DNA of 64,000 nt. Source: Owenia fusiformis. Its lineage: Eukaryota > Annelida > Polychaeta > Sabellida > Oweniidae. The notes beneath the pieces were generated by a model that was given only the letters and a program-made list of their open reading frames with translations, made no database searches and had not been told where the DNA came from. The stretch is from positions 34,023,000-34,086,999 of the forward strand of contig CAIIXF020000003.1 of the NCBI GenBank assembly GCA_903813345.2. Direction: 5' to 3'. Shown here one piece after another: positions 4,556 to 54,488 of this stretch (its first letter is position 1; each line of letters opens with the position of its first letter). The position numbers were made by a program, and so were the translations under genes.

Positions 4556-6451
4556 CGAGGGGGTATCATTAATTAGTGAGACTTTTTTGAGGCAGCATCT
4601 TATATTCATTCAATTGCAATAAAACTTGGTAGGTATATGCCCTTGAGAATAGGGTATTGAATGAACACACTCATTAATTTATTTTCATAGATACCTAGCA
4701 ACAGCGGTTACCATGGCAACGGTTGCTAGGGGTTGGTGGAGCAGCTAAAAAATTACCAGAAACAAGGGCACTTTTTACTATGTAATTTTTTACAAAATGA
4801 CAGTTTCTTTTCAAATTCTGTTTACACAGTGCCCTGAGGTGGTTGTTATGACAACACAACCAATTATGATGTCATCTCTAGTACATGATGTCACACATGG
4901 CTGTGACATCAGAGACACAGCCATTTTGCAGTACTTTAGGGTGGAGCAAAATTGGCTAAAATAGGGATGAATTCCAAAGAACTCAATGTTAACATAAGAT
5001 CTGTTATAAAATACAATGCAATCAGAGGTATTCCAGCACTAGACACCTCCGGGCCTACATAAGGTGTATGGACAGGAAAATGTGAAGCGGTCAACTGTTT
5101 ACAGGTGGTATTCTACATTTAAAGATAATGGAAACCACACTGTTTTTGATGCTCTCAGATGTGGTCGCAAATCTGATACCGTGATTCCAGAAAACATCAA
5201 ACTTATTTAAGATATGATATCTATGGATGGTAGACACACTATAACTGAACTTTGTATTATGTCTGGACTCAAATATTCCTCAGTTCAAAAGATTCTAACC
5301 CAAGAGCTATCTATGACTCGTGTTAGCGCACGTTGGGTACCCCGACTTCTTACAGGAGAGCAGAAAGCAGAAAGAGTCAGGATTTGTCAAGAATTCCTCG
5401 CACGTTATGAGAAAGACGGCATTTCTTTTCTAGAGCAGATTATCACAGGAGATGAAACTTTAATATCGTTCTATACACCAGAGTCTAAACGACAATCATC
5501 AGTATGGAGGAGAAAGGGGGAACCAGCCCCAATTAAGGCCAGGACTGTTACCCTGAAGGAGAAAAGGATGTTTATTATATTTGTTGATATTTCTGGACCA
5601 CTCCTCACTCACATGGTGCCGAAGGGGATGACTGAATAAAGAATACTATGCAAAGGTATATAGATTTTATTAGATGTACGTATATGGTTACACTGTATGT
5701 AAATAACAGAATTATTCTTTTGGCATGATAATATAGTCATTATATTACAATCATATATAATATGGCATAAATATTTATGTTTTTTCCAGTTTGTGAGACG
5801 TGACTTGCGTAACGCTATCAGAAAGAAACGCCTCCTACTAGAGAAGCCTCTCGTACATCAGGACAATGCACCCTCACATACCTCAAAACTTGTGCAAGAC
5901 ACCATGCAGAAATATGGAATGGAGAAAGTGCCTGTAAATGTAAATGTAAATCCAAAGTTAAAGGATACCCTCTGTGGAACACATTTCACTGATGAAGATC
6001 AACTAAAGCAGGCAGTCGTAACTAAAATGAATGAGCTGTGGGCTCATGGGTGTAGGGACGCATACCAGGAATGGATTGATAGATGTAGAAAGTGTATCAG
6101 ATGCTGTGGAGAATACTTTGAAAAGATGTAACTTTGCAAGCTAAATGATAGTTAGGCATGTATGCTTAGATGGCACTATACTAGTACATATTCCATAAAG
6201 TCATGAAATATAGAGAAATTGGAAAATTTGACGTAAAATCTTGAAGTTTTTTTATATTAATAACTGCTCGGGGTCACTGGTCATGACGTCACATAGAAAT
6301 CTCTTAAACCACTATATGATAGAGTTAACTAATCAAACTACATGAGGATGTAGCATACTACCAAAATGTTATTTGGTGAAAATATCAATGCAATTGAAGC
6401 AAATTTGAAAAAGTTATGGTACTTGTCTCACTAATTAATGATACCCCCTCG
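4556..6451 (+). mobile_element. Full-length Tc1/mariner-type element
   Basis: Perfect 27-bp inverted ends (4556-4582 and 6425-6451) begin CGAGGGGGTATCATTAATTA. Each end is flanked by the TA duplication (4554-4555 and 6452-6453) expected for this superfamily. The 1,896-bp element encloses a broken transposase (5049-6131). The 5' part includes a perfect X-box-like palindrome at 4707-4720. It sits just downstream of the minus-strand ankyrin exons, probably in an intron or the 3' flank of that gene. Confidence 0.9.
5049..6131 (+). pseudogene. Broken mariner transposase
   Basis: Transposases of this family cut and paste the element using a DDD/E triad. Visible here are the second helix-turn-helix region (about 5067-5205, with KRSTVYRWYSTF), the first catalytic Asp in GDETLISFY, and the second in HQDNAPSHTS. 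Lesions are a TAA at 5208-5210, a frame change near 5630, and loss of the segment that should carry the third Asp: the text runs from KYGMEKVP through a VNVNVN repeat to PKLKDTL. A 134-bp interruption (5656-5789) has GT and AG ends with a pyrimidine-rich tail and could be an intron. The C-terminal frame ends at 6131. It cannot be active as it stands. Confidence 0.85.
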
Positions 6452-9330: not shown

Positions 9331-9780
9331 TAGTGAAACCTGTATATCTGAACACATCTCTAATCTGAACACCTCTCAATTTGAACACTTTTTCTACACA
9401 GATGGTACTTAGCAGTTAGCACAGTGAAACCTGTATATCTGAATACCTCTCTAATCTAAACACCTCTCAATTTGAACACTTTTCCAACACAGATGATACT
9501 TTCCAGTTAGTACAGTGAAACCTGTATATCTGTACACATCTCTAATCTGAATACCTCTCAATTTGAACACTTTTTCTACACAGATGGTACTTAGCAGTTA
9601 GCACAGTGAAACCTGTATATATCTGAATACCTCTCTGAATTGAACACCTATCAATTTGAACACTTTTCTCAGTCCCCAATTTGTTATCTCCCTTTGATAC
9701 ATGCACATGTATATAAAACTTGAAATGTGAACAACTGCTGATCTGAACACTTTTGACAGGTCCAGTAGACAGGTTTTATT
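9331..9780. repeat. 91-bp tandem repeat of a MITE-like sequence
   Basis: GTGAAACCTGTATATCTG recurs at 9333, 9424, 9515 and, with a 2-bp insertion, 9606: an exact 91-bp step. Units carry the phrases TCTAATCTGAACACC and CAATTTGAACAC. The array ends with the inverted phrase TAGACAGGTTTTA near 9770, suggesting a transposon with ends like ACAGTGAAACCTGT whose left part was amplified. Related sequence occurs at 22240-22405 and 28298-28670. Confidence 0.85.
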
Positions 9781-9811: not shown

Positions 9812-12800
9812 TGCTGGAGGCTCATATATATCAGGAGTTAGTAGCTCTATGAGTGATAGATTAAGAGATTTATTTCGCAAGTTCACTAGTCGAACTGAGA
9901 AAATACGAGAGAGGACTGTTCAACCACCAACGCCATCTTTATCAAGCTTGGATGATGATAAGTCAGGTATTTTCATATTACATGTTGATTTTTTGATGAG
10001 CTAATATATGGCTGTTGCTTTAGCTAAATGTGCACGTTGACATCAAAGAAAACAGAAATTATTTACTGCATTTACTGCTCAAGATTTTACTTGGTACACA
10101 ATTCTCTTTGACATTCATGGACTTTTTTTAGCATTGCAGAAACATATGAATTAATTACAGTTAGGGGAGTGGTGAGAGCCCATTATGTTTTTTGAGATAA
10201 TTTTTTTGAAGGGAAAATCAACGATGATAATTAACATACTCTACATTCTTAAAGGGAGTGAGGAGGTCAACCTGAAATCAATGATGCTTTTGAACATCAA
10301 AATATTGACTAGATTCCTCAATGTTATGTAACACACAGAACCTATGAATTTGTGAAATTTTCAGTTCTCTCTGGGTTTGACAATGAAAATGAAGCTCCGC
10401 CCCAGAGGCAGCATCGACTCAACTCGTTCATTCCACTTGCGTCACCTGCCAACACTGATGCATCTGACCCTATCAAGGAAGAAAAGCATTGTGGGATAGG
10501 ACGCTGTAGAATCAAGATTCCAAAGTTTCTCTGGAGGTGCCGTTTCCCAACTACAATTGATCCCCAAAGTAAGATTTTTGAAGTGTATGAAATATTATAT
10601 GACATTTTATGACATTTTAACTGCATTAGAAATACATATTTTACATGCTTATTGAGGTGTTATTCAGATGACACTTCAGAATTAAAAGTAAATTGAAGTT
10701 TCACAATATTATTATACTTAGAATTATACATCTGCAATCACACACTTTTAAACCTAACATTGTCAAACAATAGATATTTTGAAATAGATACATTTATTAG
10801 AGAGCTTTTAGCCAGTCCAACTATGCACGACAAGTCTAAGAATGGATTCTCACTAAAAACATTTTAATACCTGAACAATATTTGCATAAACATGTATGTC
10901 ATGTGATGTTGTTGATCGCAAATGGTTAAAATGCTCCATGAAAATTAGCACTTGAAGTTGCCACTTAAATGACGACTACTAAATTATGTATATTATTTTG
11001 AATATGCATTGAAATTATGTTTTTTAGGTCAGTTGTACTTATTCTGGTTGTTCATCGTGACCTTAGCATTTATGTACAATTCTTGGGTGATTCTGCTACG
11101 TGCGGCTTTCCCCTACCAAACTCCCGCTACACTTCCGTACTGGCTGACTTTTGACTACCTGTGTGACTTGATATACCTACTGGACATAGTACTGTTCAAG
11201 CCAAGGATAAAGTTTATCAATCAGGGGATGCTGGAGGTATTAGATTAAGAAAAAAACTTTTATGATTTATGTACAATACACTGTGCATTCTATAAATCTA
11301 GTTTCCAATTTTTTGATTTCGGTCATTTTTGAAGTATCAATAGATCATATAGAGAGAGTGTGGCATGGCAATTGCTTGTCATTTGATGAATTCAATTGCT
11401 TTTTCTGTACGTGGTGACATAATTATTGTAAACTTGCTCAAGTACACTTGAATTTGATGATTTATGGTGCTTTCAAGATAATGGATCCAAGGTTAAAATT
11501 TAGATATTTTATTATTGAAACATGTTGACTGAATATTTGCATTGACTTAAGCATGCTGGAATAAATATTAACCTCTTCAATACCCAGAGTGACAAGATTT
11601 CTCGTCACCTTAGAAATGACCTTGAAACTTAGAGTGACATGATAATCAGTCACCAAAGGATGAGTCTGGGAATGAGTCTGGGTATCGACTTAGAAAATAT
11701 TGAAAATTGTAATGTCTGAAAAACCAACTCAATCACACATATTATTAAACTTCACTATCTTATCCTTCTTCTGAGAGTACAAAAATATCAATTTGTATCA
11801 CAATTAATGAAGAATATTGGCATCAAAGACAGTGCATATCACTTTGTCAGAATTGAAAAAAAAATCAATGGCAAATATTAAATGAATTATTTATACAAAA
11901 GGTTTGAAACATATCCTCCAAAACATTGCTTACTTTCTTTGTATAGACATTGAATGGTATTTCTGGATAAGTGAATTGTGTTTATCTGGGTAATCAAGGG
12001 ATTATAGACATTCAAAGTTATTGAGCATCCAGTTTTGAGACTTCAATTGTGTTGGTGAAGTTACACATATTTCAGTCAAATTCATGCTGAGCACAACATT
12101 TTGGTTTCAATTTTATAATCTCTATACATGACGCTGGTGATGAAGAGTCAAAATCAGTCAAAAAACCTAAACCGGAAAACTGTGCTCATTGTGAAAACTA
12201 AAAGTGAAGCAACTTTTTTTGTGATATTTCTTACATAAAATGGTAGCCATCTTGTTTTTGCCCCTTTAAATTAAACTGGCGGGAAATTCAAAAATTTGAA
12301 AAAAATTTAATCATTAAATATATTTCAAAAATATGATTTTCTTTTAAATTCTTCATGGGTCTTAATTTATTTCTTCTTTGTAAGTCATACATGTTGCCAT
12401 TGGTGTTTTTTCTATGATAATGACTATTTTTTGTTTGTTAAGATACTTATATTATGACTCTCAGCAGGGGGTTAATTATGCATCAAAACTCGTGAAAAAG
12501 TAAATATACTTATGAAATATAACTAAGACAGTAATAAAAAACACATTTCACATACATTTGACTGAGGGACCAAAAGGGCATATACCCGGACACATCCTTT
12601 TTCACAAAAATTGCTCTAATTTGAATAATTTTCATCCAATTTAAAGGAAAAATGGTTTAAAATGTGGAGAAATAATCTCTTCTGACTAATGTCACTAAAT
12701 TGAGCATTATGAATGAAGTAAATTTATGTCAAAAACTGGGGAAAATGAAAAATTCTGGTCAATTTTAGAGCCTGGGATTCAAGAGGTTAAATTCCTGTTG

Positions 12801-15800
12801 TCATAGGGATTGTTGACGGAAGATTTGAGACATTAATTAATAGTTACTAGAATTATGATTATGAATCTACTCCTTTATGTTTCAGCACAACCCCAAAGAG
12901 ACAAGGAAACATTATATAAAGAAGAAAGATTTTAAGTTGGATGTAGCCTCCTTGCTCCCTCTTGATTTCTTCTACTTTCTCACTGGCCTATCAAATGGCA
13001 GAGCTACGTTGCTACGGCTACCACGCATGTTAAAGGTAGGTACAGTATACATACTTAATATGCATTTTTGACACTCAGGTCAAAAGTCAAAATAATGAGA
13101 TATTTTTCCACATTCAACTAATTGTGTCTGGGAGTGGGAATGGGGTTTAGAAATATAATCACAAAATTAAAACAACATTTTTGATCTTCACAGAAACATT
13201 TTAGATGTGAAAAAATACATTAATATTTTGACCCAGACTCTGAGGGTATAAACGCCAGCAGATGCATGGCCGTCAAATGGTTTTGGGTTTTGCCACCATA
13301 TTCCCTCTGGCACAACCCAAAAAAATGAATTGAAAAGCAGGGCTAAATTGCTTCGTTTCGAAACGTTTTTTCCAAAATGTTTCATAACAAAGCAATTTGA
13401 CCCTACTATGTAACAGCTACCAATGGAAATTATAATTTTAAGAGGTCTCGGAACTGTGTAAGCTGCACAAAGTTTATCACACATTTATTCCTTAATTTAA
13501 TTCTCATAATTTTCTACTCCAATGCTTTATCTAACACTATTGTATTTCAGCTAAAGTCATTCTGGGAGTTTTATGAGCGTATAGATCAGTCTGCTAAGTC
13601 TGTCCATTTGATCAGGTATCACCCAATGTATCATGTTACATGTTGTCTCTATCCCCATGTGTACTATTTATGGGTACTCCAGGCTTTGTGGTACAGTGTA
13701 CCTTTGAACCTACCTTAATACAGGTCCCCTGTTTGTAGGTCACGGGATAATTTTTGGTACTCCAGGATCTTATTCTAACTGTCTCTCAGATGAAGTAAGC
13801 TCTATGCAGGAATATATACTAGAATGAATGGAAATTCAAAATTGATTTAAAGCCTTTTTACAACTTTGCACCATTTGCAGTTCTTCAATTAAATTCTATT
13901 TTTGGTAATGTTGTGATACATTTTGTCATCTTGATGTCATATAGAAAAAATGGAGACAAAATAGTCGGAGATTGACGTTAACCAAAATGAATATTCGCAT
14001 AATTTTATTCCAATTTCTCACAAATGAGAATGAATACATGAAGCAGCCATTAGCACATATTTGGCATATCTACATAATGCAGGATATACAGTGCTTAATC
14101 TGAGAATACAGAAAAGTGTAATATATGTTATGATTAATGTATATGATAATATGTATAATGTTGTATTCTCTATAATTTATGTACTTTTATTTACTTCTAG
14201 GTTCTGTACCTCCTGTGTTTTTGGGATTGTTGTTTGATGTATTTCTTCTGTTGATGTCATTATAATGTACCTTATTCATGTATAAACTTTGTATCTTTTT
14301 ATCATATTATTTTTGATATACATGTACTTAATTTTGTTTTAGCTATCATGTCCTACTATGTGTATCTAGCCATTATATCTTGAGGATTTTCCATAAGATC
14401 TTGGAAATATTATAACATATAATTTTTTAGATCTGTGGGTGGTATCTTCGGTTTTGTCTTTGGGATATCTGACCGCTCACATAAATATTTGTATTTGGGT
14501 ACCTTGGGTGGAATTAAAAATGAATAATGTTTCTTGTTTTGTGAAATCTGATTGGAATATTATAAAAATATTTTGAGCCTTAATAGAGTGAAATAATTCT
14601 TCATCTAGTCCACAACAAAACCTTATGGATGATGATTATTTAGACCCCTTCTCCATAGTCTACTGGTCGATTCTTTCATTGTTGACCTGATTATTGTATG
14701 TATATTAGTCTGTACATGTATTTTATTGGTGAAACTATGTACTGTATTTTTCATTTCTTTTTATTTTGGTATTAAGGTACAACCTATGTTTGATCTTTGG
14801 GAAATTTTAGAAATTCGCATCGCTCGAAATATAATTGACCTCTTTGTGGTGAGGTAGGGTTATATTGCAGATGCTGTATCCATAGTAACCATGGTGTTTT
14901 AGATAGTTTACTGAGAATGACGACATACTTAATGCACCACCTTCTTACCATTATTCAGACCAGATCTTTGGGTTTTTCTAAAATTATTATGATTAAAAGA
15001 TCTACTAGAATTCACATGTTGAATTAAAGTTATAAAATATATAAAAAAACAATTAAAATACATTAATTCATAATGGTGTTAATAATGGTGAAAATGTAGT
15101 GTATTGTTTGTCATCAGCAAAGCAAGTGGAATGTTCAGGCATGGAGAGATGTAGAAAATGTGTTGTAATGAATATAATGAGATATAAAATGCACATACAT
15201 GAGAGTATAAATGCAAGACCACAATGTTTAAGAAAAATGAAGAGTTAATCATAAATGGTGTAATGTTTCAAAGTGATCTGTTGTTTACTGTTCGTTTTCT
15301 TATTGTGGCTAGATTTATTGTATTTTTTAAATGATACAGTTCATGTACTTTAATTAACGTAAGATTGAAAGTGGTTGTTCACCTTATCATTGTTTTTCCT
15401 TTACTTGATTGATATTTAAGACACGTTGATTATATCAATTTAATATTTATTTCACATCAATACACAATTTCGAGTGAGAAACAGCTTATTTCATATCTTA
15501 CAAATACATGTATATGTATATTTTCTGAAGGTCATTTTGCTCATTTCACAGCATATGGCTTTTTTGAATTTCATTTTGCTCATTTCACCGTATGTTTTGA
15601 CTTCAGAATAGCAAAGACTCTGACCTACATTGTTGTATATGATCATGTCTTACAAAGATAGGTACATATTCTGAATTTCACTTTGCTCATTTCACCGTAT
15701 GTTTTGACTTCAGAATAGCAAAGACTCTGACCTATATGATCATGTCTTACAAAGATAGGTACATATTCTGAATTTCATTTTGCTCATTTCACCATATGTT

Positions 15801-18800
15801 TTGACTTCAGAATAGCAAAGACTCTGACCTATATGATCATGTCTTACAAAGATAGGTACATATTCTGAATTTCACTTTGCTCATTTCACCGTATGTTTTG
15901 ACTTCAGAATAGCAAAGACTCTGACCTATATGATCATGTCTTACAAAGATAGGTACATATTCTGAATTTCATTTTGCTCATTTCACCGTATGTTTTGACT
16001 TCAGAATAGCAAAGACTCTGACCTATATGATCTACCTGATCCATGTTGAAACATGTGGCTACTACGCTGTCTCAGAGTATGAGGGAATAAACTCAACCCA
16101 GTGGACTTATAATGGTGAAGGAACCTCGTAAGTACTCAATCTGATATTCTGTATTCCTAAACATTACACAGGGTGTTCAATAATTATTGCTTATTTTGCA
16201 TAACTTATGCATTGTCTTACTTTATGTATTTTCTTCCTTACAGTAAACATTTACATGGTATAGTCTAAAATGTCCCCTTACCTCTTTTCTTGCTAAGATA
16301 TCTGTTCTACAATTTTATGAAGATGCAACCTATTTTTGCCTTATTTAGGTACATTCGATGTCTTTACTTGGCAACAAAGACAGCGACATCTATTGGGAAC
16401 AACCCGCTACCATCTAACAACCTAGAGTATATGTTTATGTGTCTCTACTGGTTGTCAGGTGTCTTCGTGTTTGCCTTGTTGATTGGTCAGGTATGTAAAG
16501 TAAACATTCCACAATTAATATCTTAATTACACAGATTTCTCATCACAAAAGAATTAACCTAGTGATGACCTTGACCTTGAATGATCAGATACTCTGTCAC
16601 ATAATTCTTCATTGAAATTGCTTTAACATTGACAGTTATTTTAATCCAGTCAAATTTATGGGTATATACAGTACAGTAAAACCCAAAGCCAGGGTATATC
16701 CTAATCTCAAAACCTCCCATTGGTTGGCACTAACAAAAAAACCTTGGAATATGAACACTGTTAATCCATTCATTATTTTGGTTGGTCCCAGTGGTATTCC
16801 AATTAAAAAAAAATTTCTGTATAGAGAAGCTTTTTTTACAGCATGGTTGGCCAACAATCTACGCCAACATTGAAAATATCTTCTAAACATGCATCAGTGC
16901 ATCACATGACAACACCTTTAGTTAATTCTAGTGTAATTTTACTCTTTTTTATTTAGTTCATTTAACAGTTCCTTTACTGTCAGCTCTATTTGACTATTTG
17001 AAGGTAAAAAACTCACCATCAAGTTGTGTCTGATTCACATTTGTCTAAAATCTTAATCAGATATGTCATGATCTCTCTTTTATGTTTTTCCTTTTCCAGA
17101 TTCGGGATATTTTCCAAGCTGCCACAGCCGTAAAGACAAACTACCGCAAGACTATGGATGACACGATGCGCTACATGCAGTCATTGAATGTTCCTCCAGA
17201 GCTGCAGGAGAAGGTGCGCATGTGGTTCAATTACAACTGGGAACAACAGAAGACTTTAAGTAAGTCATGTTCAATATTCTATTCATTATATAGTAGTACA
17301 TCTACTTTGGACCATTTCATCAGATTTGAACCTGCATATAATGCAACAAGCTGATCTATATTGAAAATATCTGAAATATAACCAAGTTTCCAGTACATTT
17401 ATTGTTTTCACTGCTTCCAGATGAGAATTCCCTATTGCAAGCTCTACCTAAGAAGATCAGGGCTGATCTCGCCATCAATGTTCACTTCTCGACACTCTGC
17501 AAGGTGCACCTGTTCCAGGTAAGTCTATCACATACGTAGGCATCTAATATTCATGTTCTTGACCTATTCTTATAAATTCTTGTAGACATTATACTTTGCT
17601 AAATTAGCCTCATAAATTTGATTATATCCATTTTTATGTCACCACCAAAAAGTGGTGACATATTGTTATGGTCTCCGTTTTTTTTGACTGGTCGACGGTT
17701 GGTGGTTGATGTTTGGTGATTGGTGATCTGAGTCTGTAACAAATTCTTACACCTTCCAATAACTTAGCAAATACTGACTTCAATTATTCTCAAAATCATC
17801 TACATGTTTTCGGAAGTTCAAATCTGACTTTATATTTAAAATTTGACCTTCAATGACCTTTCCAAGGTCAAAAAAGGTCAAAAAGGTATTTTTTCAACTT
17901 GCTTCAAATTAATCTTTTTTTCAAAATCATCTATAAGTTCTCAACATTTCAAATCTGACTATAGATTTGATCCTTATATGACATTCTCAAGGTCAAAATA
18001 GATTAGCCCTTTAGTGACCTCCTCAGGGTCAAAAAGGTATTTTTTATCTTGCTTCAACTAGGTGGTGACATTTTGTCATGTTAATGCCTTGTCTAATCCA
18101 GTACAGTTCTTTCAAATTATTGACATGTCAGTGACAGAAGAATCTGTTTCATGCAAATAAGCAGTGAGTGCAGTTTATATATTCAATGTTTCTGGTCATC
18201 ACAACTCATAATCATCATATTGTTGTACAAACAAAGCTCAACACAATGTCACCCTGGTTTTAAATCTTGGATTTGAAATATCATACAGAAAGGAAAAATA
18301 GCTTCGCATCTGTTCACAAAATCATAAAATGACCAGTATCTGATCTGTACACTATAATGTATATGTGCACACGTTTTAAATATGATATTTGTGCTGCAAT
18401 TTGATTCTTGGAACTCGTTCATTGAATATGAAAGGATTTTATTGGATCGAAAGTAAGATTAAGGTTCTTTGTAGATAGATTACACAATTATTTTCTCCAG
18501 TACATGTACATGTATGTACATGTATGAGTTCTGTTATGATTTAAGACATCCTTTTCAAAATTTTATATTTAATTCATAATTTTACCCCAGCATGTGAACG
18601 TTAATGTTAAACAAATCATATCTTTTTGAAATGTCGCCAGCATCGTAAATGTAAATCAATGTCCCTTTTAGATCCCATAGAACCCAAGTTTGCATTTATA
18701 TAATTTTGAATGAAATTTGACTGAGTCACATGACCTCTCGTGGAATTTACTGTTTTTCATGTTGATTATGATGTCAAATTATGATTATGATTATGTTGAT

Positions 18801-21800: not shown

Positions 21801-24800
21801 TTGTGTTATTATGAAAACATGTCTTTCTTTCTTTCTGATGTTGATGTTATTGCAACTTAACATTCAATGTTTAGAGTTCCACAACAGTTTTTCCTGCTTT
21901 GTTACACAGCATTTTGACATGAGAAAACATTTGTAACAAAGGATATTTAACATGTTACACAGACACAAAATCCTTCATTATGAAGCTTTATATGCTTTTT
22001 GTCAAAATGCTTCATAACAAGGCAATTGAACCCTGCTGTGTAACACAAAACATAACAAAAAAGCAATTTTGTAGGAAACTGTTAGCACAGAATGCAGCCA
22101 AGAATAAGAGTGCAGAAGCCGCAAAGGAAAAAACAGAAGTTGTTATTAAAGGAAGGGCATCCACACCGAAACTTTTCTCAGCGGTTATTAAGGTACGAGT
22201 CTGGAGCACTAAGTTAGTAACAGCAAATTGCTGAAATAATTTTTTATGAACACCTCTCTAATCTGAACACTTCTCAATATGAATGCTTTGTGGTCACATT
22301 TATTTAAATATGCCATGGACTTCCATGTAATAAAACCTTGAAATGTGAACACCAACGAATCTGAACACCCCTGATTGGTCTCAGTGGTTTTCAGATTAGA
22401 CAGGTTAACTGTAGGGTCAAATGTCTCATCTGCCTGTAATCTCCTCCATTGAAGAATTTTGTGGTTTTATTCATCTTAATTAAGTTAGGCTTTCATTAAA
22501 AGTAGAGCTATCAATCTCATTTTAAGTCTACTGTTTGAATATGTGAGGACTTGTTCTGATTACACATTGAAGTTAAGCTGCTTTATTTCAAACAAATCAC
22601 ACATGTATTTCCATTTCAGGCTGTACGTCCTGACTCTCGAGTACACTCCATGATGAAAGGACGTAAATTGTTAACCAATCAGAAATCATTGGATTCTACG
22701 CTGTCCAATGGTGACCTGGTCCCAAATGAGAAGGATGAAATACGTAAAGCCATGGAGAACACGGACAAGGAGACTGGGGAGATTGTGGAAGAGGGAGATC
22801 AACAAAAAGAATTTGGTGATTCAGAGCTTGATGAACTGGCAGATGATATCCTAAAATGTAAGAATTTGTTTAATTCTAAATACGTCATAGAAGAGGAGAG
22901 GTTCCAACTGTATTTTCCATTAACCAATGTGGTATTTACCATTCTAAATATTGCAACTAATCCATTCTGAGATGAAGTAATTTTCTGAAATATAGACTAT
23001 AGAGGTTCAAAATTTCTATTTCATTGTCATTGCAGCCACCATTGCTAATAAGAATGACCTTGATGGGGATGATGATAATAATGCATTCATGGCAGAAGAA
23101 GATGATGAGGATGTTCTCATTGATGACGATGATGATGATGGCATGGATGATGATGTACCAAATATTGACAATCTGGGTGAAATTGCACTGCCAGTAAGAT
23201 TACCTTTACAAAAATGTCAGCATTCTTTATTAATGATAACATGAAAATCAGTCCAAAAATGCATTTTCATGTTTTACAATTGTGAAATTGCTTTCATGAA
23301 TTTGACTTTATGAATTTGACTTTATGAATGAATTAACAAATTCCCAACACTCTAGAGGCGTTTCCATATTAATATCCAAAAGACTCTCGTGTAAAATTTT
23401 AAATATTGTTAGCGGTAATGATGGAAGACGATTGCTCTCAAATGTTGATTTAAATGGTACAATATTTTCTTTAATATCAATCTATGCACCAAATGAAAGC
23501 AACTGTAGAAAATTATTCTTAGACAACCTTAATAGTTGGATTCAAAGTAATAAGCATATAGAAGGTAATATTATAATAAGTGGTGACTTCAACTGTGCTT
23601 TAAGAGATTCTGACAGATTTCCAACAACAGAAAAATATCATCAAAATGATAAAAGTAGACAGAGTCTAAAACATTTTATTGAAAACTGCACTTTAATTGA
23701 CACGTGGGAAAATTATAATAAATCAAACAAAAATATAGGCTTTACGTATAGTACCAAAAACCTAAAAAGTAAAAGTAGACTTGATTACATTTTTATCTCA
23801 AAAAACAACAGACTTGAAATTAAAAAAAGCTATATACTCCAAGCATTAAAAAAAGATCATAAAGCAGTTATAACAGATATAAGATTATTAGGAAATAAGA
23901 GAGGGAAAGGATACTGGAAACTTAACAACTCATTATTAGAAGATCAAGATTTTTGTAACAATATATCAAAATACCTCAAAGAAATAAATCAAGAAAGTAA
24001 AACATTCAAGTCCAAAAGGGTATGTTGGGAGCTGATAAAGGTAAGAATTAAACAGATTGCAATAAGTCATTCAATTAAAAAGAGTAATCAAAGAAAGGAC
24101 AACAAAATAATTTTACAAGATCAAATCGATTGCTTAGAAAATTTCATAAATCAGTGTAAACGAGAAAATGTTAAAACAGAACTAAATATCAAAAGGAATG
24201 AAATGATAAATAAGTTAGACAAATTGTATGAATATGAATCAAGTGGAATGTTTATTAGATCAAGGGCTAAATGGATTGAAAAGGGGGAAAAAAGTACATC
24301 TTATTTTTTACAATTAGAAAAACAAAGACAAACCAGTAATGTTATAACTAAAATAAAAACGCCATCCAAGGTCGTCACAGAAGATATTGAAATTTTAAAA
24401 GAAGCCTGTAAATTTTATGAAAACTTTATAGAAATAATAATTCAGATGAAGAAGTGATGAACAACTATCTAAAAGAAGTAGAACTTAATTACACCTTAAC
24501 TGAAAGTGAAAGAAATAGTTTAGAAGTAAATATAACAAAATCTGAAGTAAACTCATCAGTGAAAAATCTAAAATTGAATAAAAGTCCTGGTTTAGATGGG
24601 ATAACTCCTGAATTTTACAAATATTTTTGGTCAGATATGGAAAGTATATTTTTGGAAATGATTAATGAAGTTTTTCAAGAAGGTGAATTATGTGAAACCA
24701 TGAAAATTGCGATCTTGAACTTAATTTTCAAAAAGGGAGATCGACAACTCCTTGCTAATTACCGTCCCATAAGTCTTACTAATTATGATTACAAAATTAT

Positions 24801-27800
24801 AGCTTTTACATTAACAAATAGAATAAAAAGCCTAGTGAAAAAACTTGTTGGAAAAAATCAATCTGCATACCTTGAAAAACGCTTTATTGGAACAAATGCC
24901 AGATTATTAATAGATTATTTAGAACTTATAAACAATGAGAATAGAAATGGATTGATAATTAGCCTAGATTTTAAAAAAGCCTTTGATAGTCTTAATTGGA
25001 ATTTTATGTTCAAAGTCCTTCAGAAAATGAATTTTGGCAAAAGGTTTATTAAGTGGGTGACAATTTTATATACAAATCCAATTCTCAAAATAAAAAATAA
25101 TGGTTTTTTGTCAAATGAAGTAAAGATAGAACGAGGTATACGCCAGGGATGCCCAATCTCTGCATTATTATTTATTTTATGTGTTGAAATCATGAATAAT
25201 AAAATAGAAAATAATAAATTAATCAAAGGTATTAGTATTGATGGCAAAAAAGAAACAAAGGTGATTCAACATGCAGATGACACGACATTAATTTTAGAAA
25301 ACAAAGAATCAATCTCACATGCATTAACAGAAATAAAAACATTTTCGGAAGTAAGTGGTCTATGTCTCAATCTAGAAAAAACAATTGGCATAGCACTAGG
25401 TAATTTTAAAAAGCAAACCGATGAATACTTTGAAAATATTAAATTCACAAATGAACCAATTAAAACCTTAGGTATTTATATTGGCAATAACAAAGAAAAA
25501 TGTGCAGAGCTAAATTGGAACCCCAAAATCTTAGAATTTGTTCGAATCTTGGAAAAAAAGAAAACTTTCTTTATTTGGTAAAGTACAGATTATCAATATA
25601 TTAGGAATCTCAAAACTAGTATATAACTTTTCTATCCTTGATGTCCCCGAAAGAATTGTCAAAAAAGTAAATTCAATCATTTATAATTTTATTTGGAAGA
25701 AAGATAGAATCAAAAGAAAAACTACAATATTAAAAATTAAAAATGGTGGTTTGGGCTTAATAGACGTTGAAACAAAGATAATGTCATTAAAAGCAAGTTG
25801 GGTGAAAAGAATACAAGATGATGACACATCATGGATTGATATTCCAAAATATTATATCAAACAGTGTGGTTTTAAAATTGATGATTTTATAAAAACACAT
25901 TTTACCAAAGATACAAAACTGCCTATGCCATTGTTTTATAGAGGAATTTTCTTAGCTTTTAATAAATGTAAAACTAGAAACGATCAAAATCTAATAGGAG
26001 AAATATTTTGGCTAAATGAATCTTTTAAAATTAAAAATGAAGTGGTACACAACATAAAATGGATAAATAGTGGATTTATATATGTTAAAGATTTCTATGA
26101 TGAAAATGGAACCTTCTATAATGAAAACTATATAAAAAACAAACTTGTTAACAAAAGAAATTGGATGATAGAATACATTCTTATAAAAGCCTGTATAACA
26201 AATGTGATGAATAAGTATGATACTACAAAAGTAAAATACACAAACATAAAATATAGGAAAACTTTCCTTTTAGGAAATGATAAATGGATTAAATTAGAAG
26301 AGATGAAAACAAATATGCTATATGATATATTGATAAAAAGTAAACAAGAACGAAATGTTTTAGAAAAACATTGGAGTAATATCTTTAGCATTCCTCATGA
26401 TAAAACGTTTTATGATAAAATATATTCCTTGAAAATAACAAACATGAAATACAAAAAGTATGCTGAATTCAACTTTAAATTACTTCACAACATTTTAGCA
26501 TGTGGAAGTGAGATATGTAAATGGAACTCTAATATTAACCAAAATTGTTCAAAATGTAATATAATTCAAAATGCAAAACATCTTATTTTTGAATGTAAGC
26601 TAGTAGAAACACTATGGAAGGATGTGGAAAAAATATTGAAATGTAAAATACTCTGGAAACATTTTATTCTGGGTTTTTATTGCATGGAAAGTGATATTAT
26701 AGCATTTAGAAATTTAATACTTACTATTATAGGTTACACAATATATTCAACATGGGTAAAATTGTCAGAAGAAAGGAATAAATATGAAAATGTCAACTTC
26801 AAATCAAAAATTGCATCCAATTTAAAGTTTTACGCAAACTGTGTAAATGAAAACGAAAAAGTAAATCATTATTTAGATCAATTTATTAAAAAATTTATAT
26901 CATAAATATGTTGTTGTTTTTTGGTGAAGCTCTATATATTAAAATGTTCTATGTATTTGTAGAAATTGCATGTATTTTTGAATGTATTTGTTTTGTAAAT
27001 ATGTTATGTTGAAATAAATGTAAATAAAAAAAAAAATAAAAAAAAAAAAAAAAAATGTTTTACAATTGTGCTAGGTACAACTAATTACTAATGAGGAAAA
27101 ATAGAAAAGAATTAAAAACTAACTTTATGTTTGATTTCAAGGACACTGATGACACAGATGATAGCGATGAAGATGCTCCACCATTTGAAGACACAATCAT
27201 TGATGATGCTGAGACTCTCTTAGATAAAGTACTTGAGGACCAAACACTGTTGGAAGCAACATTAGATGATGAGTTAGATGATGAGATTGTCAGGAAAGAT
27301 GATGGGGCAAAACGAGATAGCAAAGATTCTGGTAAGCTTCCACTATGTTTGTTATTACCACCATCTAATTTGTTTTTGCAGTTTTGCAATATTGGGGCCT
27401 TGCCAACTTAAATTGTTGACTTTCAGTATTTCTGATATAGTGAACACAAAATTAGACCCTTTTGACAACTTAGAAATCAGTTTGGTTAAAACTGAATTTT
27501 TGTGACACAATAAACTCATATTTGCCAGAACGCTTAGTTAATCTAACTGTTTTCAATTCCTGTCACACACTTATTTTCCTTTGGGAACTAAAGTATTTAT
27601 TTCCTTTCAACAATGAATCCACCATATTCAGTTCCAAGTAAGCACTACAATACTTCTTTAAGTGGTACATACAATGTATATTTCTTTCCTAATTTCAGGT
27701 GTACCTAGCAGCAAGAGTAGAAAATCATTAAAAGATGGCAGCAAAGAGTCAATCAACGAGACTGTCCAGGAAGCTATGATTGAGTTTGCAGATGTTATTG

Positions 27801-46807: not shown

Positions 46808-46905
46808 TGTTCTAGACAGTTGTTCACTTGCTTGATCCAGGGCGAGTACGTCGGGCGTATATGATCTGAATCGTCATTGAACAGAAATTATCAAAACGGG
46901 AAAAC
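46808..46905 (+). promoter_or_regulatory. Conserved leader of GPCR gene 1
   Basis: GTTCTAGACAGTTGTTCACTTGCTTGATCCA and the GGGAAAACATGG start context are shared with the second gene (50525-50626), although sequence further upstream differs. A conserved 5' UTR or proximal promoter is the simplest reading. Confidence 0.55.
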
Positions 46906-48869
46906 ATGGAGTTCCACATAGCACATTTCAGTAATATCAATACAACGAATTCATCGGATCAGAGCTACCTATTGACATATCCTCCTTATGCTGAACATTC
47001 TCCAGGAAAGTTTGCAGTTTACATGTTCTTCGCTGTAACATTCTGTATTTTAGGAGTATTTGGAAATATTCTTGCTATCATTTCGATTTTACGCGAAAAG
47101 GTAAGGAAATTAATATCGAAATAATGATTAATTTGGAAAATCTAGAAGAAAGAAGTTTTCACAATGACTTCGATTTAAGAGTGAATGTAACCACAATAGA
47201 AGGGAGGGGGAACCCACACTCCGACACGGTTAAACCCAATACTGAAAAGCACAGCCTTCTCAAAGAACAAAGCCTATCATTTTTTAGATCTTGCGGGTTC
47301 CTGAAAATATGTTCCTCGTGTCGTTGGCTGCGTCTGACATATTGGTCGCTGGACTAGTGCTGCCATTTAGCATAGCAGGTTGGTATATCTATGATTAAAT
47401 ACATCAAGTTGAAAGAGCAAAACAAGACATAACTGATCAAAGTCATCTGCAGTTATGCATTGTAAAATATAACTACTTCAATGATTTTGATCTTTATATT
47501 GGCCCAACCTTCCTTTACATTTTGAATAATTGTATACACAGGAGTGGTATTAGGAGAGGAGTACTTCTTTCATAGACCCCAGACTTGTGAGTTCCTAGCA
47601 GCGGTCTGCTGGTTAGCATGTGTTAGCGCATATTTGAGTATTTCGGGGCTTGCCATCAACAGGTACGCCTATTTACACTGTTTTTATTACTTTTTATACT
47701 CCGTATCGCTACACGTATCATATTCAGTTACTAGTTGCACTACAGGAGTTAAATATCAGACACATAAATCTGGTTTACGTGTTACGGGTTCTTGATGTGT
47801 TGTATCTGTGAAACCCCTCTATTAACTTATCCGTTTTAAACATAATTAATTTGAGTTGGAGTTTCAATTCAAATGAAAAAACTACTAACTGTAAGGTAAT
47901 AAATTGCTTTTAATTTCTACTTGCAAAATGGATATGACCTTTACGTTTTAATAAAATAATTACAAGGGAGGCGATGTGTTTCAGGATGATTTTAGTTTGG
48001 TTTCCAAAACTGTATGTCAGACTTTTCACATGGAAGACCACTCCATTCATAGCGTTTCTCCCGTGGTTCCTCACATTACTGACCGTCATTCCTCTACTGA
48101 CAGATTGGGAAAAGTTAGAATATGATCCAGAGAGTATGAGCTGTATAATAGATGTAGATCACCTCCCTACTAACATATACCAATTTGTGTTCCTGTTGCT
48201 GTCACTAGTGACGTCATTCGTCGCCATTGTTATGACAGCTGTGAAGATAAAAGTTGTAAAAGAAAAGAAATACGAGGTTAGTGACCTATAATTTAACGAC
48301 TTAAGATTATTATTTGTATAAATCCCATATTCAAATGTCAACTACTAATAAGATTTTCGAGGAAATAATTATAATTTCATTAGAATAAATGCCTGGTATG
48401 GTATTTGTATTTGAATATTGGGAGCTTGATTAGTTGGACATTGTTCAAAACTCTTCGGATTACAGGTTTCAACTTTTCGATCTCTGATTTGTTTCAGTTT
48501 TCCGCGATAGCTCCTAATGTGCTTTTAATGGGAACGTTTCTGCCTGACGCTGAAGAGGAGCACCTCCATAGGAATGTAGATGAAAAATCGGAAGAACTCC
48601 GGAAGTACCTTGATGACATCATGATCACTGTTAAGATGCTTTCGTGCCTTTTCATTGCCTGCTTTATTTGGACGCCTTATACGATTGCAATTCTGTCGCA
48701 GCATATTGTCACGTATGGAAGAGATTACTGGGCCTTTGCTTGTCTACTAGGCCATATGCAACCAGGACTGAACAGTTTCTGCTATCTTATCTCCAACAGG
48801 TACTTTAGAAAGGGTTTTGTGAATAGCATTTTGTTGATGTTTTGCTGCAAGACAGGACGACATAAATAG
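46906..48869 (+). CDS. Rhodopsin-family GPCR, melatonin-receptor-like, gene 1
   Basis: Seven-helix plasma-membrane receptor; ligand unknown. Five exons: 46906-47100, 47288-47378, 47542-47662, 47985-48276, 48498-48869, 1,071 nt or 356 residues, with all junctions in phase. N-terminal N-glycosylation sites NTT and NSS. TM1 has [11 protein letters not shown]2 [18 protein letters not shown]3 starts at the disulphide Cys (QTCEF) and ends LAINRMI where most receptors have DRY and melatonin receptors NRY. ECL2 contains [10 protein letters not shown] with the partner Cys. TM6 has FIWTP for CWxP, and TM7 has NSFCY for NPxx[15 protein letters not shown] and YDP..SC recall melatonin receptors; the family is an inference. 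It is followed by a close paralogue. Confidence 0.92.
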
Positions 48870-50524: not shown

Positions 50525-50626
50525 GTTCTAGACAGTTGTTCACTTGCTTGATCCATGACGAGTACGGGTGTATATGAACTGAGATGTTAAGTCACCATTG
50601 AACAATATTCATCAACAAGGGAAAAC
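50525..50626 (+). promoter_or_regulatory. Conserved leader of GPCR gene 2
   Basis: It matches 46808-46905, including TTCTAGACAGTTGTTCACTT and the GGGAAAACATGGAGTTCC start context, with small indels. Confidence 0.55.
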
Positions 50627-53600
50627 ATGGAGTTCCAAATAGCGCATTTGAGTATTAATATCAATACAACGAATTCATCGGATCAGAGCTATCTATTGAC
50701 ATATCCTCCTTATGCTGATCATTCACCTGGAAAGTTTGCGGTTTACATGTTCTTCGCTGTAACATTCTGCATTTTAGGAGTATTTGGAAATATTCTTGTA
50801 ATCATTTCAATTGTACGCGAAAAGGTAAGGAAATTGATATGATTACCTTGGTGAATTTCGTTATTGTGCAATATAGTTATGACGTGCATGGACCTGGGGA
50901 CAATTCGGTACGGGCTGATTTCAGCTTTGAGCGTTAATCTCTGCCTTATTTAAAAAGCTAGCTATGTTGTTTCTATATCATTTTGAAGTATTTTTTATTC
51001 GCATTTCAGTGAAATTATTTTTTCTTCAAAATGTTGATGGGATCCAACATATTTTTAAAGTTAAACATATCCCAAAATCGTCAAATACGCTGTAAGACGT
51101 AACACTTTACACTTACAGGGCTCGTTGAAATTGGGATAACTTTTGAAATAATGCTCAAAATCCCACTAAAATTTCACAATTTATTCAATGGAACATGTTC
51201 ATTTATGACGTCACAATTGCTTAACGGCTACAGTTCAAATTATCATATATGAACGCTTTTAGAATTTTCAAAATTGTGTAAGGTTTTGAAGGCGAATGGG
51301 ACGAGCAATAAGTTCACCTTCATTTAACCTTCTAATTCAAGTCTGATTTGAAAGAAAAATTAACTGCACAATATTGTCATGGCGAAATTTACAAAACAAT
51401 AACCAGTTTGTTTATTTTGCAAATAATATTAAAATAAGAGCTGGTTTTCGAGACTTGAAAAAAATGTGACGCATCGATTTTCTACCACAAATTCCATACA
51501 TATCAATTTTTACCAACGCCCCAAGTGGATTTCTTGACCGTTTTCCCAAATTCAAAAACATTTTAGAAATATTGTCCTCGAGATCTTGCTACCCTGTGAA
51601 TTTTGTCATGATTAGATAAGGATAAAGTATTTTATTTTTAGGTTGACTAAACTTGACAAAAATGTGACGCTTGTCGTTTTTGACGTTGTAAGGCTGTTTG
51701 CGCCCTACTGCTCATTGTTTTGTCTTGGTTTTTTGACGCCATAATGTTACGCTAATTGTCCCCAGTTTCGTGCGACGTGTATGTACGAACAAAACGGAGC
51801 TTTCCCCCTTCATTCGTGTGTAAGACAACAACGTTGGTCACTCATAAGCCACAGAACCAATCTTCATTCATACATTTGATTTTCAGATTTTGCGGGTTCC
51901 TGAAAATATGTTCCTCGTGTCGTTGGCTGCGTCAGACATATTGGTCGCTGGATTAGTGCTGCCATTTAGCATAGCAGGTTGGTCTCTATCCATATACTAT
52001 ATATATATCGAGTTGAAAGAGCAGAACAAGACATAACTGATCAAAGTCATCTGCAAGTTATGCATTGCAAAATATACCAACATTAATGATTTTGATCTTT
52101 ATATTGGCCCAACCTTTACATTTTGAATAATTGTATGCACAGGAGTGGTATTAGGAGAAGAGTACTTCTTCCATAGACCCCAGACTTGTGAGTTCCTAGC
52201 AGCGGTCTGCTGGTTAGCATGTGTTAGCGCCTTTTTGAGTGTTTCAGGTCTTGCCATAAACAGGTAAATTTTTCAAGATTTTTAAACTTGTGTCTAATAT
52301 TTCACAGGGCCCAAAAAAAACTTTTGGCCCATCCATTTTAAATGGACTGATTAATTGCCCTCTTAGCACGAATAATTATCAATTATGGGCCTTAATTTTT
52401 TAAAATTTGAGTCCACTTTTTTGGTTTTTGGGGCCCATACCTCTCATACTTAAAATATGGGCCACACTTGTTGGTTCCTTGATCCGCCCCTGCTCTTCAA
52501 TAATACAAGTTTCATTAGATCCTTACTTTAACGTATAATTAATCAATATTTTTTCTTTCGTTTTGATGCATTGATTTGCAATAGACTGTTTTGAATGATT
52601 AACGTAGTCGCATTTTCCGAATTGCTACGCTTATCACTTTACACTTGATGTTTTAAATGAGTTACACACCATTCCAAAAGTTTGGGAACCTTAGCTCCCT
52701 CATTGAAATACATGTCAAGGTGCCATGGTACTTAACAGGAAATAAAAAGACATGTTGCATTTTTAGACACTTTTTGAACAATGCAAAATTATTTCATCAT
52801 GTTTAGGGTCATTCTGACCATGTACATTGTGATCCTGATCAAGTAAATGATATGTTGAACTAGTTAAACTGACTCGATGTCAAAACAGAACTCTGTTATC
52901 TTTGTTAAAAAATATCCATAAGTCTCATTATGTTTGAATTTTTATTTACATAACCTGCGAGCAAAAATACATATAACTTTGATGGAAATGTAATTTGACT
53001 TTATTTCCAATGCCTTCAAATTTTCCCAATTCCTTCCACAATTACAATAGGTCGAAAATTGATGATAAATCTGATGATTTTTTGAAAATCGTCATTCTCA
53101 TGTAAACCAATGGGAAATATATGTAAGTTTACCGCAAGTCATACAAAATATTCATCCGTCGAATTTGCTAGTTTTATTTAAAACTGATAGGTCCTTCGAG
53201 TTTAAAAACTTATAATAGCTATTTTTTATTTTTCAAAAAAAACCTCCCACTGAAAAAACATAGAAGGCAAAAAATGATTTTCAAAAATGACTTTGAAGCT
53301 CTGTAACTTTAATATTCATAAAGTAAACTGAACAATTAGCGTACAAATACACACATTTCGATGGATCTTTTACTGGATAGATATCCTGAAATCAGATTTT
53401 CCCATAACCAAGTCAAGTTACGTTTTGATTAATATTATAAGCATTTTTCTCACACGTTATGTTTTCAAATTTTTAAATTATAGTTGTGTACGTGAAACCC
53501 CTCTATTCTATTTAACTTAATAATTGTATAAGTTAAGTTTCAAATTCAAATGACACAAATATTACAGGTTATAAATTATTATAGATACATTTCTACTGGC

Positions 53601-54488
53601 AAAATGGATAACATGACCCTAATGGACTAAATGTGTTGCAGAATGATTTTAGTGTGGTTTCCAAAACTGTATGTCAGACTTTTCACATGGAAGACAACTC
53701 CATTCATAGCGTTTCTCCCGTGGTTCATTACATTGCTGACCGTCATCCCTCTGTTAACAGACTGGGAGAAGCTGGAGTATGATCCAGAGAGTATGATCTG
53801 TGTAGTGGACGTGGATTATCTCCCTACTAACATATACCTATTCATGTTCATCTTGTCGTCACTAGTGACGTCATTCATCGCCATTGTTATGACAGCTGTG
53901 AAGATAAAAGTTGTCAAAGAAAAGAAATACGAGGTTAGTGAATGAACCTTCTAATGGAATGACTAATAGACTGTAATATATATTTCTATAACTTATTTGT
54001 ATAAATCGCATTTTCTTTTTTAAGTACGAAAAAGTTCGGAGACAATAATTATTCCAGAGTATATGTGGATTACGGGTTTCAGTTCGGCACTGCATTAATT
54101 ATTTCAGTTTTCCGCGATAGCTCCTAATGTGCTACTTATGGGAACATTTCTGCCTGATGCTGAAGAAGAACACCTACATAAGAATGTGGATGAAAAATCG
54201 GAAGAACTCCGGAAGTACTTTGATGACGTCATGATCACTGTTAAGATGCTGTCGTGCATTTTCATTGCCTCCTTTATCTGGACGCCTACTGTGATTGCTG
54301 TTTTGTCGCAGCATATTGTCACGTATGGAAGAGATTACTGGGCCTTTGCTTGTCTTCTAGGCCATATGCAACCAGGGCTGGATAGTTTCTGCTATATAAT
54401 CGCCAACAGGCACTTCAGAAAGGGTTTTGCGAATAGTCTTTCGTGGGTGTTTTGTTGCGTTTGTTGCAAGACAAAAATACAGAAATAG
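50627..54488 (+). CDS. Rhodopsin-family GPCR, melatonin-receptor-like, gene 2
   Basis: Tandem paralogue of the preceding gene. Exons: 50627-50824, 51887-51977, 52143-52263, 53642-53933, 54108-54488, 1,083 nt or 360 residues. Middle exon lengths (91, 121, 292) are identical to gene 1 and phases agree, so the pair arose by duplication. The same departures are present: NRM for DRY and IWTP for CWxP. TM7 reads DSFCY, changing the NPxxY Asn to Asp. ECL2 has [12 protein letters not shown]. The C-terminus is slightly longer and Cys-rich ([15 protein letters not shown]), a possible palmitoylation region. Introns 1 and 3 are expanded; intron 3 holds a MITE fragment and a long-arm repeat. Confidence 0.92.
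52305..52492. mobile_element. CAGGGGCG-family MITE fragment in GPCR gene 2 intron 3
   Basis: It ends GATCCGCCCCTG and contains runs of TTGGCCCATCC and GGGGCCCATACC. The left end is degenerate (CAGGGCCC) and no duplication is visible. Confidence 0.55.
52660..53450. repeat. Long-arm element, copy 1 (relative at 62291-63153)
   Basis: It shares AAAAGTTTGGGAACCTTAGCTCC, TAACCTGCGA, CAATAGGTCGAAAATTGATGAT and AAGTCAAGTTACGTTT with 62291-63153 in the same order. The inverted-arm organisation is partly decayed here. Confidence 0.7.

Follow-up and report, generated by a model that had tools for sequence, protein, structure and literature searches.

The window, by which we mean the whole stretch of 64,000 nucleotides that was analysed, carries on its forward strand a gene that we modelled in part. 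The partial model consists of 15 exons between positions 9812 and 23193, which when joined give one open frame of 723 residues; the start and the end of the gene lie outside its scope. The 14 modelled introns measure from 161 to 2,389 nt. Among solved structures, the modelled protein is closest to CNGB1 (7rh9_B, E 1.1e-162) and then to CNGB3 (E 6.6e-147), while CNGA structures match it more weakly (best E 6.7e-106), and it contains both an Ion_trans (PF00520) and a cNMP_binding (PF00027) domain. The lead of CNGB over CNGA, together with the presence of both domains, identifies the gene at the level of its predicted protein as one for a CNG channel beta subunit (CNGB), in agreement with the earlier note on this DNA, which had called it a CNG channel gene. 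A search of the genome with 163 residues of the CNGB protein returned its own locus and five others, these with 26-33% identity over single long open stretches, and yielded no second CNGB gene for comparison.

Several other elements were observed in the window. A 91-bp repeat (ATCTGAACACCTCTC...) lies at 9332-9668, ahead of the first modelled CNGB exon, and a piece related to it, by eye, is found at 22245-22283. The CNGB intron past modelled exon 15 holds a LINE-like element (23306-26905, by eye), with endonuclease/reverse-transcriptase-like ORFs in broken frames and an A-rich tail. At 5211-6131 there are transposase-like ORFs, split into two pieces and of a mariner-like appearance by eye, and two adjoining and very similar GPCR-like genes (46870-48869 and 50591-54488, by eye) are apparently the product of a tandem gene duplication. 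A structured RNA was also considered and set aside, since Rfam, at gathering scores, matched nothing in the window.

The structure that concerns us here stands at the end of CNGB intron 5. Exon 5 ends in AG and exon 6 begins with A/ATA GCA (the slash marks the boundary of the codon contributed by both exons), so that their phases fit, and alignment to CNGB1 places the joint at the entry of S5, between what we take to be the S4-S5 linker and the S5 helix. Running up to and into exon 6, TRF detects a 97-bp period repeated 4.1 times with 98% matches, and also a 194-bp period; a separate repeat search gives the same copy spacing of 97 nt. Such an array is not the product of chance. Its repeat unit combines two pieces, 69 nt from the end of intron 5 and 28 nt from the beginning of the S5 exon (exon 6). 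The sequence GACTTCAG/AATAGC, cut at the slash, is present in five copies, the last of which is the real acceptor of exon 6, and four TAG/GTACAT donors follow; the resulting exon starts, and the bases directly after which the donors stand, are those of the exon-like stretches in Table 1.

Table 1. Features of the CNGB exon 5 to exon 6 region (positions are those of the window; a slash marks a splice point)
Feature	Positions	Strand	Basis
CNGB exon 5, S4-S5 linker, ends ...SVHLI-AG, donor CAG/gtatca	13551..13615	+	gene model; donor PWM score 8.1
Flank plus first spacer, the unit's intron part in a diverged source copy (TCATATCTTACAAA..., CATTTTGCTCATTTCAC repeat about 40 nt apart)	15491..15606	+	repeat search, BLAST
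97-bp tandem array, with 194-bp higher-order period over 15565-16032	15636..16032	+	TRF, repeat search
Copy 1 exon-like stretch, 55 nt, frame closed by a terminal TAG (poison exon if included)	15607..15661	+	
Copy 2 exon-like stretch, 45 nt, open; donor to exon 6 acceptor 246 nt	15714..15758	+	
Copy 3 exon-like stretch, 45 nt, open, peptide as in copy 2; 149 nt to exon 6 acceptor	15811..15855	+	
Copy 4 exon-like stretch, 45 nt, open; just 52 nt to exon 6 acceptor	15908..15952	+	
CNGB exon 6, S5 and following loop, donor CTC/gtaagt	16005..16127	+	gene model, structure alignment, splice-site scoring

Copies 2-4 are phase-neutral, open, and flanked by an acceptor and a donor, each of them encoding 15 additional residues that repeat the head of S5 followed by MSYKD; copy 1 fails in this respect. 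The earlier note had described a 97-bp array in which the acceptor recurs together with the 28-nt head of the S5 exon, with a donor exactly 45 nt after the acceptor in copies 2-4 and with phases that would allow inclusion in frame, and our results agree on each point: TRF and the repeat search recover the array, the donor is TAG/GTACAT with the frame open before it, and exons 5 and 6 join in the phases given above. Its further statement that copy 1 is 10 nt longer and would break the frame is likewise correct, and to this we add the terminal TAG, which it did not mention. The signals of the acceptor have been copied in full. The last 16 intron bases are identical at all five acceptors, and the last 20 are the same in exon 6 and in copies 1, 2 and 4, copy 3 having one change. 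In addition, every unit contains sites resembling the yUnAy motif of branch sites, CTCAT at -25 and TTCAC at -20. Comparing copies 2-4 and the real unit, we found no variable site in the exon heads and two in the spacers, which are too few to judge by; copy 1, which is broken, is also the most diverged. There is no clear sign, with so few variable sites, that the copies are preserved as exons.

The source of the array is local. BLAST of one unit against the genome, in a search that skips very common words, gave six matches, and all six fall in the array or its immediate upstream flank: four full units, the segment 15562-15625 (97%) and the flank at 15491-15557 (78%, E 6.6e-6). A dispersed satellite or mobile element carrying the unit is not supported by this distribution. 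The start of the unit, TCATGTCTTACAAA, is matched at 13 of 14 places at 15491, and on the + strand of the window it occurs with at most one mismatch only there and at 15643, 15740, 15837 and 15934; 20 simulated 64-kb sequences contained no match at this threshold. At 43 of its 45 places the first spacer (15562-15606) is identical to the copy-3 unit, and of the two differences one is copy 3's own change; the flank upstream of it has diverged by insertions and by the CATTTTGCTCATTTCAC repeat. Units made of an intron end and an exon head thus stand head to tail and adjoin their source, and a diverged intron source beside head-to-tail units is what would be expected from a tandem duplication over the junction. 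One spacer site alternates T, C, T, C, T across the five spacers and this points, along with the 194-bp period, to the copying of a dimer at some stage. The six bases GATAGG of the donor are absent from the upstream flank, implying either that the donor arose within the unit or that the flank once had it and has since lost it.

To rate the splice sites we used a sample from dynein genes and from CNGB itself. From 74 of 88 dynein rows we obtained 57 pairs, of which the 46 with one GT-AG solution were used (4 ambiguous pairs and 7 without a solution were dropped), and the 15 CNGB donors and acceptors were added. The real acceptor of exon 6 has a PWM score of 7.9, above 23 of the 61 sampled acceptors, and that of copy 3 scores 7.94; copies 1, 2 and 4 share the 20 bases of the real site. 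The copy donor, with a score of 5.49, exceeds only 4 of 61 sampled real donors. Its predicted U1 pairing (-5.5) is close to that of exon 6's own donor (-5.4), with 20 of the 61 donors as weak or weaker, and one inferred dynein donor of the same genome likewise ends in GTACAT. Intronic GTs that score at least as high as the copy donor number 23 of 573, the four array donors counted in. Judging from the acceptor and donor scores, a copy of the array could be recognised by splicing, weakly. As a measure of how easily such an arrangement arises, 69 nt of the gene's own intron DNA were set behind the same 28-nt exon head in 8,899 placements: 11.3% contained any donor at least as strong, and 2.5% one that was also open and in frame. 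The in-frame design of the copies is suggestive, a modest piece of evidence found after the fact.

Intron length narrows down what these sites would permit. Each of the four copy donors is separated by 52 nt from the acceptor that follows it, and in an intron of this size the branch-like A of CTCAT would lie about 28 nt from the donor. We estimated 91 introns of myosin and dynein genes in this genome from exon-by-exon matches, taking neighbouring pairs with a small model gap (30 + 61, from 79 of 92 myosin rows, 12 array rows and one other being left out, and from all 88 dynein rows). Their minimum is about 115 nt and their median 318 nt; five are shorter than 150 nt and none of the 91 is shorter than 100 nt, a result that by the rule of three is compatible with up to about 3% of short introns. 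The 46 dynein introns with one exact GT-AG solution, scanned from lengths of about 50 nt upwards, have the same minimum of 115 nt. If a floor of either 100 or 115 nt is imposed, 5 of 16 combinations remain, namely the normal form, copy 2, copy 3, copy 1, and copies 1 and 3 together. Copies 2 and 3 yield the same +15 product, while copy 1 and copies 1 and 3 carry a stop. With such a floor, the form that lends itself to testing is one +15 isoform and one poison form, and not a series of 0, 15, 30 and 45 residues.

It was this series that the earlier note had proposed, with none, one, two or three in-frame copies spliced in. Frame and phase do allow it, and 8 of the 16 combinations stay in frame if an intron of 50 nt is permitted, but adjacent copies, or copy 4, would require introns of 52 nt, when none of the 91 sampled is below 100 nt, the sampled minimum is about 115 nt and the 14 CNGB introns are of at least 161 nt. 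This part of the note does not fit the intron lengths. Excerpts of a study on human introns describe rare verified ultra-short ones among 22 candidates of 37-65 nt (PMC4463651) and, given these and the 3% that our sample leaves room for, the case from intron lengths is strong, not final; we consider the ladder highly improbable. Regulated splicing of a single cassette exon, in which copy 2 or copy 3 would add 15 residues in some cells and thereby alter gating or assembly, would escape the problem, the introns being of 246 or 149 nt, and it could draw on the open frame, the neutral phase, an acceptor equal to the real one and a donor whose U1 pairing is like that of exon 6. Protein alignments speak against it. 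The zero-copy protein has one open frame and is gapless at the joint against the three CNGB1 chains shown; for the +15 form, among the five chains shown, the two of CNGB1 align only with gaps totalling 15 residues (8 + 7), and for the three of CNGB3 the alignment does not begin before residue 40. Gating would probably suffer or be altered if 15 residues were inserted between the S4-S5 linker and S5. These poor alignments, the low PWM score of the donor and the lack of a preserved-exon signal, to be read with the small number of variable sites in mind, make a regulated cassette unlikely. A literature search on invertebrate CNGB1 splice variants found none, and a variant may still be in print.

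The array could also act on the amount of transcript, decoy acceptors or the copy-1 poison exon leading to decay and the length of the array tuning the level of CNGB. The TAG of copy 1 would serve this purpose, as would the five nearly equal acceptors and the TGA that, as read from the sequence, is soon met when the acceptor of copy 2, 3 or 4 is used without its donor. The points in favour are all of this kind, read from the DNA itself, and we regard such dosage control as very unlikely. Also very unlikely is that the array is a length-variable minisatellite of phase-neutral mini-exons at the S5 entry, whose length, if it varies, would set how often +15 or decay-bound transcripts are made; were it true, a splice-level rheostat would have been made by one duplication. 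The near-identity of the copies raises the question of whether the repeat was collapsed or expanded during assembly, but the copies do differ from each other (the 10-nt insert, T/C and G/A changes) and the contig measures 34.9 Mb. An array of about 0.5 kb is short relative to long reads. An artefact is scarcely probable.

We consider it likely that the array is an ordinary and recent tandem duplication across the intron-exon boundary, later amplified, with splicing running mainly from 13615 to 16005 and the array itself near-neutral. According to this explanation, a segment of about 97 bp, in which the intron 5 end with its branch-like site, pyrimidine-rich stretch and AG is joined to the first 28 nt of the S5 exon, would have been duplicated in tandem, and the copies would then have spread by unequal exchange or slippage, in part as the 194-bp dimer. 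The copies and the source flank are there to be seen; the order of the duplication events we infer. The spliceosome would mostly join 13615 to 16005, since the last acceptor alone has a full exon behind it. Since the copies bring along a complete acceptor and, close to the joint, a weak donor, some low-level inclusion of copy 2 or of copy 3 may occur, which would add 15 residues ahead of S5; copy 1 would give a stop if included, and the 52-nt spacing would prevent the tandem inclusion of neighbours. As we read it, the array is neutral or close to neutral. The fallback offered by the earlier note, an array merely competing for the spliceosome, would come closer to this explanation than its ladder does. 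Three observations count against this explanation: the copy donor is not poor, its U1 pairing being like that of exon 6's own donor; an open in-frame donor of this strength appeared in just 2.5% of placements; and the upstream flank lacks the GATAGG of the donor.

The duplication may provide a recent example of a junction copied several times with its full acceptor, each time with a usable-looking donor, and the CNGB array would then show an exon or intron in the making, at a raw stage. Should the +15 form exist, one could learn from it whether a CNG beta subunit tolerates added residues between the S4-S5 linker and S5; and should the array vary from one animal to the next, it would reveal whether the splicing of a sensory channel depends on repeat length.

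Within the same genome, a myosin heavy chain locus (L029; G000:C9:37985500-37994700, minus strand) matches one stretch of the myosin head (PF00063, about 27-81) at least 12 times in tandem, with amino acid identities of 0.35-0.98 (median 0.71) among the matches, and looks like a large array of alternative exons. At another locus (L014; G000:C9:7082562-7087388), one dynein AAA_6 stretch (about 57-160) is matched three times in tandem, possibly by alternative or duplicated exons or genes. The myosin array resembles that of CNGB in having head-to-tail exon copies in one gene. However, its 12 matches are long, diverged exon stretches, with a median identity of 0.68 in nucleotides and 0.71 in amino acids, whereas the CNGB copies are made of a 28-nt exon head and intron DNA and are near-identical throughout.

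Closer parallels are found in the literature on intron gain. In the potato RdRp gene, according to the portion of the report available (PMC4974935), a tandem duplication across an intron-exon boundary gave rise to a new intron, supported by RNA-seq, that inherited the parent's branch site, pyrimidine tract and acceptor and used a cryptic GT as its donor. As far as that portion goes, the duplication in CNGB is alike in crossing the acceptor, with branch site, pyrimidine tract and AG inherited. The two differ in that potato RdRp has two copies and an RNA-supported intron, whereas the CNGB array, known from its DNA sequence, has five acceptors at a 52-nt spacing, and in that the donor came from exon DNA in potato and from intron-derived DNA here. 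A review, in the sections available, counts 188 unambiguously identified intron gains that arose through tandem duplication, and describes as 'imprecise' those gains in which coding bases are added (PMC3443670); in CNGB, too, duplication supplies latent splice sites, whose use would in some copies add coding bases. In the standard model, as given in these sources, a piece of exon bearing AGGT is duplicated, whereas in the CNGB array it is the intron-exon junction. Within these limits, the CNGB array appears to be a further case of the published tandem-duplication route, with more copies, whose use by the splicing machinery is putative.
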